This document shows positions 21,960-25,797 of a stretch of 64,000 bases of DNA, piece after piece. The DNA lies in the NCBI GenBank assembly GCA_016868035.1, contig VGID01000010.1:24850-88849 (forward strand), given 5' to 3'. This DNA comes from Betaproteobacteria bacterium (GTDB lineage: Bacteria; Pseudomonadota; Gammaproteobacteria; Burkholderiales; SG8-41). Below the pieces are notes generated by a model, which was given only the letters and a program-made list of their open reading frames with translations, did not search any database and was not told the DNA's origin. Both the position numbers and the translations under genes were made by a program. Each line of letters opens with the position of its first letter. Within the stretch, counting starts at the first letter, position 1.

Positions 21960-23126
21960 ATGAGCGATTTCCTATTCACGTCGGAATCCGTTTCCGAAGG
22001 CCATCCCGACAAGGTCGCCGACGCCATCTCCGACGCCGTGCTCGACGCGGTGCTGGCGCAGGACAAGAGCGGGCGCGTTGCCGCAGAAACGCTGGTGGCC
22101 ACGGGCCTCGTCGTCATGGCGGGGCAGATCACCACCGGCGCGAACGTAAATTACGGCGAGCTCGCGCGCGAAGTCATCAAGCGCATCGGCTACGACGACT
22201 CCTCGATCGGGTTCGACTACCGCTCGTGCGCGGTGCTCATCGCGTTCGACAAGCAGTCGGCCGACATCAAGCAAGGCGTCGACGAGGGCACCGGCCTCGA
22301 TCTCGAGCAGGGCGCGGGCGACCAGGGCCTGATGTACGGCTTTGCGTGCGACGAGACGGCGCAGCTGATGCCGATGCCGATCTACTACGCGCACCGCCTG
22401 ATGGAGCGGCATTCGGAGCTGCGCCGCGACGGGCGCTTGCCGTGGCTGCGGCCCGACGCGAAATCGCAGGTGTCGGTACGCTACGTCGAGGGCAAGCCGC
22501 ACCACATCGACACCGTCGTCATCTCGACTCAGCACCGCGAGGACATCTCCCACGAGCCTCTCACCGAGGCGGTGATCGAGGAGATCGTGAAGCCGGTGCT
22601 GCCGAAGAACATGGTCACGAAGGACACGCGCTACCTGATCAATCCCACCGGCCGCTTCGTGATCGGCGGGCCGCTCGGCGATACCGGGTTGACCGGGCGC
22701 AAGATCATCGTCGACACCTACGGCGGCTACTCGCGCCACGGCGGGGGCGCGTTCTCCGGCAAGGATCCTTCCAAGGTCGACCGGTCGGCCGCGTACGCCG
22801 CGCGCCATGTCGCCAAGAACATCGTCGCCGCGGGGCTTGCGAAGAAGTGCGAGATCCAGGTCGCCTACGCCATCGGCGTGGCGCGGCCGGTGAGCGTGCT
22901 GGTCGACACCTTCGGCACCGGCAAGATCCCCGACGAGAAGATCGCCGCGCTGGTCGGCAAGCACTTCGACCTGCGGCCCAAGGGCATCATCCACGCGCTG
23001 AACCTCCTGCGTCCGATCTATTCGAAAACCGCGGCCTACGGGCACTTCGGGCGCGACGAGCCGGAGTTCACGTGGGAGGCGACCGATAAAGCCGCAGCAC
23101 TCAAGGCCGACGCGGGCATCAGGTAG
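21960..23126 (+). CDS. metK: S-adenosylmethionine synthetase
   Basis: [51 protein letters not shown]. Confidence 0.98.
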
Positions 23127-23167: not shown

Positions 23168-23173
23168 TATAAT
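23168..23173 (+). promoter_or_regulatory. Putative -10 element TATAAT upstream of the SAH riboswitch
   Basis: CGTGTATAATTCGC; aptamer P1 begins about 7 nt downstream; no clear -35. Confidence 0.55.
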
Positions 23174-23179
23174 TCGCTT

Positions 23180-23241
23180 CGCTGAGGAGCGTTGCGACCG
23201 GGCAGTCCCCGGCCAGGCTCAGCGAAAATCAACGGCGCTCG
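23180..23241 (+). ncRNA. SAH riboswitch, copy 1
   Basis: cgctGAGGAGCGTTGCGACC..GGCCAGGCTCagcg..AACGGCGCTC; P1 CGCTGAG/CTCAGCG, P2 CCGGG/CCCGG, pseudoknot GAGCGT/GCGCTC. Confidence 0.92.
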
Positions 23242-23270
23242 CATCGGAAACGATGCGGGCGTTTTTTCTT
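23236..23270 (+). terminator. Intrinsic terminator overlapping the pseudoknot strand of SAH aptamer 1
   Basis: CGCTCGCATC-GGAAAC-GATGCGGGCG followed by TTTTTTCTTT. Confidence 0.85.
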
Positions 23271-23278
23271 TATGGCTC

Positions 23279-23348
23279 CCCGAGGGGCGCTGCGACCAGG
23301 ACGGCCTGGCCAGGCTCGGGAGCGGGCCGTGTCGCGGGAACGGCGCCC
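23279..23348 (+). ncRNA. SAH riboswitch, copy 2 (tandem)
   Basis: cccGAGGGGCGCTGCGACC..GGCCAGGCTCggg..AACGGCGCCC; P1 CCCGAG/CTCGGG, P2 CCAGG/CCTGG, pseudoknot GGGCGC/GCGCCC. Confidence 0.9.
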
Positions 23349-23369
23349 GTTATTTGAGGACCTTCACCC

Positions 23370-24788
23370 ATGAACGCTGTCGTATCGAAATCGCATTCCC
23401 CCGACTACCACGTCGCCGACATCGGCCTGGCGGACTTCGGCCGCAAGGAGATCGCGATCGCGGAGACCGAGATGCCGGGCCTCATGGCGCTGCGCGAGGA
23501 GCACAAGGGCCGCCAGCCGCTGAAGGGCGCGCGCATCGCCGGCTCGCTGCACATGACGGTCCAGACGGCGGTGCTGATCGAAACGCTCGCCAAGCTCGGC
23601 GCGGAGGTGCGCTGGGCCTCGTGCAACATCTTCTCGACGCAGGACCACGCGGCGGCCGCGATCGCGGCCGCGGGCATCCCCGTGTTCGCCTACAAGGGCG
23701 AGAGCCTCGAGGAGTACTGGGAGTTCACCCACCGCATCTTCGAATGGGCCGACGGCGGCACGCCCAACATGATCCTCGACGACGGCGGGGACGCGACGCT
23801 GCTCGCAATCCTGGGCGCCAAAGCCGAGAAGGACTCCTCGGCGATCGGACGCGGGACGAACGAGGAGGAGCGCGTGCTCTTCAGCGCGATCCGCAAGCGG
23901 CTGGAGAGCAGGCCGGGCTGGTACTCGAAGGTGCTCGCCAACATCCGCGGCGTGACCGAGGAGACCACGACCGGCGTGCACCGCCTCTACCAGATGGAGA
24001 AGGAGGGGCGCCTGCCGTTTCCGGCGATCAACGTCAACGACTCGGTCACGAAGTCGAAGTTCGACAACCTCTACGGCTGCCGCGAATCGCTGGTGGACGG
24101 CATCAAGCGCGCGACCGACGTGATGATCGCGGGCAAGGTGGTGGTGGTCGCGGGCTACGGCGACGTGGGCAAGGGCTGCGCGCAGTCCCTGCGCGGGCTG
24201 GGCGCGATCGTGTGGGTGACCGAGATCGACCCGATCTGCGCGCTGCAGGCGGCCATGGAAGGCTACCGCGTGGTGACGATGGATCACGCCTGCGACAAGG
24301 CGGACATCTTCGTCACCGCCACGGGCAACGTCAACGTGATCACGCACGAGCACATGAAGCGCATGAGGCACAACGCGATTGTCGCGAATATCGGCCACTT
24401 CGATTCCGAGATCGACATTTCCGGCCTGCGGCAATACAAGTGGGAGAACATCAAGCCCCAGGTGGACCACGTGGTTTTCCCCGACGGCAAGCGGCTCATC
24501 GTGCTCGCCGAAGGCCGGCTGGTGAACCTCGGCTGTGCCACCGGCCACCCGAGCTTCGTCATGTCGAGCTCCTTCACGAACCAGGTGCTGGCGCAGATCG
24601 AGCTCTTCGCGAATACCAGCAAGTACCAGAAGAAGGTCTACGTGCTGCCGAAGCAGCTCGACGAGAAAGTGGCGCGCCTGCACCTGAAGAAGCTCGGCGC
24701 CGAGCTCACCGCGCTCAGCGAGGCGCAGTGCCGTTACATCGGCGTCAACATCGACGGACCGTACAAGCCGGACTACTACAGATACTAA
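23370..24788 (+). CDS. ahcY: Adenosylhomocysteinase
   Basis: [34 protein letters not shown]-terminal [11 protein letters not shown]. Confidence 0.98.
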
Positions 24789-24864: not shown

Positions 24865-25797
24865 ATGAGCCTCGCCGAAAGACTGCGCTCCACCTCCGGC
24901 ACGGTGCTGCTCTACGGCACCACGCCGCCGCGCGAGGGCGCTCCCGAGGACACCGTGCATTTTGCGGCTGGCAAGCTCGAAGAGCGCATCCGCGGGCTCC
25001 CGCTCGACGGGATCGTCGTCTATGACCTGCAGGACGAGAGCGTGCGCACGAGCGTGCCGCGTCCTTTTCCGTTCTCCCGCACGATCGATCCGCGCGCCTA
25101 TTCCACGCTGCTCGCCACGCTGACCGGAAAAAGCGCGGTGTGCTACAAGTGCATCGGCCAGATGGACGTGGCCGGATGGGATGATTGGCTCACGCGCACG
25201 AGCGCGGATTTCGGCTTGCGGCTCATTTCGATCGTGGGCCGGCCGAGCTCGCGCGGCGCGGCCCACGCGATGTCGCTCACGCGCGCTTTCGACGTCGCTG
25301 CGGCGCACCCGGCCCGCTTCCAGCTCGGAGCCGTGGCCATTGCCGAGCGGCATTCGGGCGCGGACGAGAGCCGGCGCATGCTCGAGAAGATCGCCCACGG
25401 CTGTGCGTTCTTCGTGTCGCAGGCGGTCTACGACCCCGAGCCCACGATCCGCCTGCTCACGAATTACCTGCGCGGCTGCCGCGAGTCCGGCATCGCGCCG
25501 CGCCGCGTGGTGCTCACGTTCTCGCCCTGCGGCCGGGACAAGACGATGGCGTTCATCAAATGGCTGGGAATATCCGTGCCGGTGGAAACCGAGCGCGCAA
25601 TCCTGTCGGCATCCCGGCCCGTCGCGAAATCCATCGAGATCTGCCGCGAGAACCTGCTGCGGATACTCGACCAGGATGATGCCGGCGCCCTGCCGCTCGG
25701 CCTGAACATCGAGAGCGTTTCGATCAACCGGGAGGAAATCGACGCCTCGGTGGATCTTTTTCACGCGCTCGCGGAGGTCCTGCGGCGCGCGCGTTAG
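24865..25797 (+). CDS. Divergent methylenetetrahydrofolate reductase-like protein
   Basis: 310 aa following ahcY; TIM-barrel-like motifs (GCAFFVSQAVYDPEPT, GLNIESVSINREEI); N-terminal LLYGTTPPREG in place of EFFPP. Confidence 0.6.
   Translation: MSLAERLRSTSGTVLLYGTTPPREGAPEDTVHFAAGKLEERIRGLPLDGIVVYDLQDESVRTSVPRPFPFSRTIDPRAYSTLLATLTGKSAVCYKCIGQMDVAGWDDWLTRTSADFGLRLISIVGRPSSRGAAHAMSLTRAFDVAAAHPARFQLGAVAIAERHSGADESRRMLEKIAHGCAFFVSQAVYDPEPTIRLLTNYLRGCRESGIAPRRVVLTFSPCGRDKTMAFIKWLGISVPVETERAILSASRPVAKSIEICRENLLRILDQDDAGALPLGLNIESVSINREEIDASVDLFHALAEVLRRAR

Follow-up and report, generated by a model that had tools for sequence, protein, structure and literature searches.

Two SAH riboswitch aptamers in series between metK and ahcY: a known riboswitch class in a new arrangement

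Tandem riboswitches and the SAH class

Two complete riboswitches for the same ligand within one leader are known from the pseudo-cooperative tandem TPP riboswitches, in which control by the two copies is exerted at the same level; the leader described here is built likewise, and differs in that the platforms of its two copies are not the same. A likeness also exists with the SAM-II/SAM-V tandem of Pelagibacter (PMC9481103; PMC11508383), where a terminator aptamer again stands first, an RBS-adjoining aptamer second, and one ligand serves both. That system, however, combines two aptamer classes, is an OFF switch and has another ligand, whereas here a single class occurs twice, the expected direction is ON and no RBS sequestration is visible. 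Tandem SAM-II riboswitches with mixed platforms (PMC9481103) also present one class twice, with the terminator first and the RBS second, but they are OFF switches for SAM, while the ligand of the present leader would be SAH.

The SAH riboswitch (RF01057) found before ahcY shares with our locus the aptamer model, the gene context, a Burkholderiales host and a pseudoknot overlapping a terminator, for which an ON switch is expected; it normally has one aptamer per leader, whereas two are placed in series here. The passage of PMC4239095 that describes the SAH regulon assigns to it ahcY and metF of beta- and gammaproteobacteria, with no mention of tandem aptamers in that description. Furthermore, a survey of tandem riboswitches from the Breaker laboratory (2022; PMC9481103) lists SAH in its Table 3 among the classes not found in tandem, in agreement with an earlier note on this DNA that had considered the arrangement unusual. 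No report of tandem SAH riboswitches was found in the literature searched, although an older mention may exist. SAH aptamers placed in series before ahcY are a novel layout for an established riboswitch class, and a tandem conserved in many species fills a printed gap, in which SAH stands as a class without tandems.

The metK-ahcY leader and its first aptamer

Analysis of the window, i.e. the whole stretch of 64,000 nt, with cmscan against Rfam returned exactly two matches, both to RF01057, both over model positions 1-78 and both above the gathering score of 37 bits used as the cut-off for SAH matches (Table 1). The two complete aptamers lie between metK and ahcY in one leader, with a gap of 28 nt (less than 300 nt being the limit for a tandem), no open reading frame between them and one putative promoter; in the whole 3.9-Mb genome they are the only SAH matches. 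The position of ahcY is in concordance with the SAH-recycling gene context expected for RF01057. The two matches are those that the earlier note, having read two complete SAH aptamers from the letters, had expected of such a search. Its claim of perfect pairing held for P1 of copy 1 and for both pseudoknots, but not for P1 of copy 2, where the covariance model (CM) marked a non-standard outer pair. The class-defining pseudoknot (GAGGNGCG core with a GCGCNC strand) is 6/6 paired in each copy, and the two copies differ in it by an A-U to G-C exchange; double-sided changes in the pseudoknot also occur among single SAH leaders.

Table 1. Coordinates of the leader elements and flanking genes, given as positions in the window
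Feature	Position	Strand	Details
metK, methionine adenosyltransferase, upstream gene	21960-23126	+	TIGR01034, 586 bits
TATAAT, -10 box	23168-23173	+	5-6/6 match, fixed spacing in 31/31 tandem leaders
SAH aptamer 1 (RF01057)	23178-23247	+	63.8 bits, E 1.9e-9, full length
P1 of aptamer 1	23178-23186/23218-23226		TTCGCTGAG/CTCAGCGAA, 9/9 paired
Pseudoknot of aptamer 1	23187-23192/23235-23240		GAGCGT with GCGCTC, one G-U
Intrinsic terminator of aptamer 1	23235-23268	+	stem 23235-23246/23251-23262, T-run 23262-23267
SAH aptamer 2 (RF01057)	23276-23355	+	53.1 bits, E 5.7e-7, full length
Pseudoknot of aptamer 2	23285-23290/23343-23348		GGGCGC with GCGCCC
GAGG, Shine-Dalgarno (SD) of ahcY	23356-23359	+	read from sequence
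ahcY, adenosylhomocysteinase, regulated gene	23370-24788	+	TIGR00936, 625 bits

The 3' strand of the aptamer 1 pseudoknot, for which the coordinates of the earlier note (23235-23240) proved exact, lies within the 5' arm of an intrinsic terminator. This terminator was also called by a pattern scan, and its hairpin (23235-23262 plus Ts) reached -22.8 kcal/mol (z = -6.9), with 0/200 shuffles as good. We read 31 tandem leaders in full for layout counts, and a terminator sharing the pseudoknot strand was present in every one of them, at -21 to -28 kcal/mol and with at least five T in the next eight bases; it was seen too in a 32nd leader (G119), read by eye. Across the tandem leaders the pseudoknot of aptamer 1 is GAGCG[U/C]/GCGCUC, 13-16 nt separate P1 from its 3' strand, and pairing of the terminator stem is kept through variation at two positions (U-A, C-G, U-G and G-C, U-A, A-U, respectively). 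Since the pseudoknot strand is common to the terminator stem, SAH binding should antiterminate, as had been predicted, and the layout underlying this prediction thus recurs in 31/31 tandem leaders. At the level of sequence and structure, the first aptamer would therefore control an intrinsic terminator, and copy 1 is well supported as a SAH-ON transcription switch, its ON direction being presumed by analogy with the published SAH class.

In 31/31 tandem leaders the GAG of aptamer 1 is preceded, at a distance of 9-11 nt, by a -10 hexamer with 5-6/6 matches; in the window, no good -35 hexamer was found upstream of TATAAT, and transcription is predicted to start near 23180, where the 5' strand of aptamer 1 P1 lies. 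No -10 box stands ahead of aptamer 2 (3.06 matches vs 2.80 in shuffles), and a separate promoter for copy 2 was ruled out, no promoter-like element preceding it. The -10 box before aptamer 1 and its lack before aptamer 2 therefore point to one transcript.

Occurrence and conservation of the aptamer pair

The same ordered SAH pair was found in 31 other genomes from at least four families of Burkholderiales; this, together with the copy-specific pseudoknots, ruled out chance or an assembly duplicate. Two same-strand SAH matches with starts about 100-170 nt apart were present in 25/64 SAH-positive genomes of the window's own family, where tandems occur in three species of its own genus, in 19/19 SAH-positive genomes of genus g6, in 2/3 of g7 and in one of g3. 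In an order-wide sample of 399 genomes, 337 were SAH-positive and at least 13 of these have the tandem, with families f11, f40 and f47 represented, while the checked two-copy genomes of families f48, f21 and f35 have their copies far apart and not in tandem. Outside Burkholderiales, none of 60 SAH-positive genomes from other orders in the class had the tandem. A pattern scan of GTDB r220, with one genome per species, gave 26 stretches. Three of these, in Naasia (an actinobacterium), a planctomycete and Ruania, were due to chance and had no SAH match; the named remainder were Burkholderiales/Betaproteobacteria MAGs, SG8_41 among them. A single origin of the tandem was considered on the AhcY tree, where at least five label changes are forced; either an old pair has lost one of its copies several times, or the pair may have been gained more than once.

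The pseudoknot of aptamer 2 is GGGCGC/GCGCCC in 30/31 tandem leaders and AGGCGC/GCGCCU in the remaining one, with 19-28 nt ahead of its 3' strand. Aptamer 2 adjoins the ahcY RBS, and the start codon follows 26-31 nt after the start of the pseudoknot 3' strand in 28/31. That copy 2 lacks a terminator and has its pseudoknot next to the RBS, as the earlier note had read, was confirmed by 0/31 terminators after aptamer 2 and by the distance of 7 nt between the pseudoknot end and GAGG in the window.

Pairing in copy 2 over the 31 leaders exceeds that of column shuffles both in P1 (0.80 vs mean 0.69, max 0.74) and in P2 (0.845 vs 0.739, max 0.794), with both-sided changes in 4/5 columns of each. The aptamer core is near-invariant in all families, which is partly by construction of the search pattern; the tandem pairs had first been found with the independent Rfam model, before that pattern. 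The CM scores of copy 2 are below those of copy 1, and the C that precedes its AACGG varies. The P1/P2 covariation and the near-invariant core argue that copy 2 would still fold and bind SAH. It should be added that in the g6 tandem leaders (e.g. L036) copy 2 carries CUG-GNAA-CGG ahead of the pseudoknot strand, possibly a GNRA hairpin that would hold this strand when ligand-free.

Either half of the leader is also found by itself. In three genomes of the window's own genus (G001, G006 and G009), the -10 box, aptamer 1 and the terminator are followed directly by SD-ATG, whereas G005 (own genus) and G021 have the copy-2-type aptamer only, directly behind the metK stop and with no -10 box. Relatives carrying a single copy of either type indicate, therefore, that each half can stand alone as a complete switch, which by its elements would be transcriptional with its own promoter in the case of copy 1, and translational in the case of copy 2. 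Such relatives constitute a natural deletion set for the value of double reading in terms of steepness, leakiness and timing. In G005 (L042) and G021 (L059), metK and ahcY form apparent operons with a predicted translational SAH switch between the genes. A third platform was observed within the same family, in leaders with one SAH aptamer such as L003, L006 and L010, TCACGnAC-T-run-...AAAGGAG(A/C/G)GCGTGATG, where the hairpin hides SD and start codon and has its 5' arm in common with the pseudoknot strand.

Possible action of the second aptamer

With a probability of roughly two in three, we read the leader as promoter, aptamer 1, terminator, aptamer 2, RBS and ahcY, with two complete same-ligand aptamers in series of which copy 2 acts post-transcriptionally. 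At low SAH, the terminator stem would take the 3' strand of the aptamer 1 pseudoknot and transcription would stop near 23268; at high SAH, the bound pseudoknot would hold this strand, no terminator would form and RNA polymerase would proceed into aptamer 2 and ahcY, the product of which would remove SAH. We infer that both copies bind SAH, and aptamer 2 would be a second SAH sensor on the finished mRNA, most likely acting post-transcriptionally on translation initiation or mRNA stability, with ahcY expressed only upon SAH being sensed twice.

The earlier note had suggested translational control by copy 2. In such a bi-mechanism switch, the ON counterpart of SAM-II/SAM-V, copy 2 would hide the ahcY RBS without SAH and free it with SAH, making an AND gate of transcription and then translation. 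We calculated with ViennaRNA the free energy needed to open SD-ATG both when the pseudoknot strands were left free and when they were withheld, in a model where neither pseudoknot nor SAH ligand can be represented. The modelled opening in the window costs 4.0 kcal/mol with and 4.6 kcal/mol without the pseudoknot, a difference of 0.6; over the 31 tandem leaders the mean difference is -0.1 kcal/mol, indistinguishable from that of shuffled flanks, and opening the SD takes little energy in either state (about 4.8 kcal/mol, modelled). The 12 single copy-2-type leaders, by contrast, have a median difference of about 4.6 kcal/mol, with the SD hidden without ligand. This contrast gave p = 0.001 (Mann-Whitney) on related sequences that are not independent, and p = 0.012 without the over-sampled genus g6. 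The anti-SD hairpin of the single leaders was missing, according to the model, in the window and nearly all tandems, and longer or shorter folding windows had no consistent effect on it; when 19 tandem leaders from one genus were folded comparatively, no conserved pairing partner of the SD emerged. Pairing of the copy 2 pseudoknot strand with codons 2-4, considered as an OFF state in the window, was no better than in shuffles (z -0.08) and was discarded.

Modelling has thus found no structure linking copy 2 to the RBS in the window, and opening differences of about zero in the window and 31 tandem leaders, against about 4.6 kcal/mol in singles, speak against the claim of translational control. 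Because the model treats neither pseudoknot nor ligand, the claim is lowered rather than dismissed, and RBS gating by copy 2 stays plausible from its place and its single-copy relatives. Copy 2 stands directly ahead of the RBS with nearly fixed spacing; in G005 and G021 a hairpin CCATTC...GAATGGAG joins the last pseudoknot-strand bases to the SD; G112 and G030, alone among tandem leaders, show a predicted RBS effect beyond all 20 shuffles; and mixed platforms have a published precedent (PMC9481103). With the mean effect nil in the tandems and their SD open in both states, we nevertheless consider the bi-mechanism switch a possibility against which the odds are somewhat tilted. As no RBS gating by copy 2 was modelled in the window or on average in the tandems, the steeper or two-layer response proposed by the earlier note is therefore kept as a hypothesis.

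Copy 2 might instead influence the stability of the mRNA or 30S standby binding with the SD left unhidden, a reading that we consider less likely than not. It would agree with a tight pseudoknot-to-ATG spacing that persists despite the lack of conserved SD pairing, and with the end of the SAH-bound pseudoknot, which would border the 30S footprint some 20-25 nt upstream of the start codon, although the spacing may merely reflect a short leader. Copy 2 could also be the remnant of a former translational riboswitch, redundant beside the copy 1 terminator switch and being lost, but this seems unlikely. Most tandems do lack the anti-SD hairpin, CM scores of copy 2 are the lower ones and copy-1-only leaders exist in the own genus; yet every tandem leader, across at least four families, has retained the core, the pseudoknot and covarying P1/P2, and both copies are kept in all 19 SAH-positive genomes of one genus. 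Cooperative SAH binding of the glycine-riboswitch type, with two aptamers on one shared platform, would fit two homologous aptamers lying side by side, yet it is highly improbable, given that the copy 1 terminator overlaps its own pseudoknot only, that this shared strand already exists when transcription reaches copy 2, and that each copy occurs alone in relatives.

Within the preferred reading of two sensors in series, aptamer 2 is strictly conserved while a hairpin to hide the RBS is missing, a mismatch suggesting that the SAH class has a platform still to be described. We tentatively suggest that aptamer 2 may be a conserved sensor tuning ahcY without hiding the SD, through 30S standby or mRNA decay; SAH would then be read twice, by RNA polymerase and afterwards by ribosome or nuclease, in what would be the first tandem of its class, ON-ON, with a new platform type.

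Directly behind ahcY, in the usual place of metF, a 310-aa protein is encoded at 24865-25797 (+). It has no Pfam match and a weak NCBIfam match to MTHFR (E 5e-4), and is a clear relative of the solved 'uncharacterized protein' 3ijd (E 2e-51). Because no canonical MetF above cut-off is present anywhere in the 98%-complete genome, this protein could represent a diverged MTHFR controlled by SAH.
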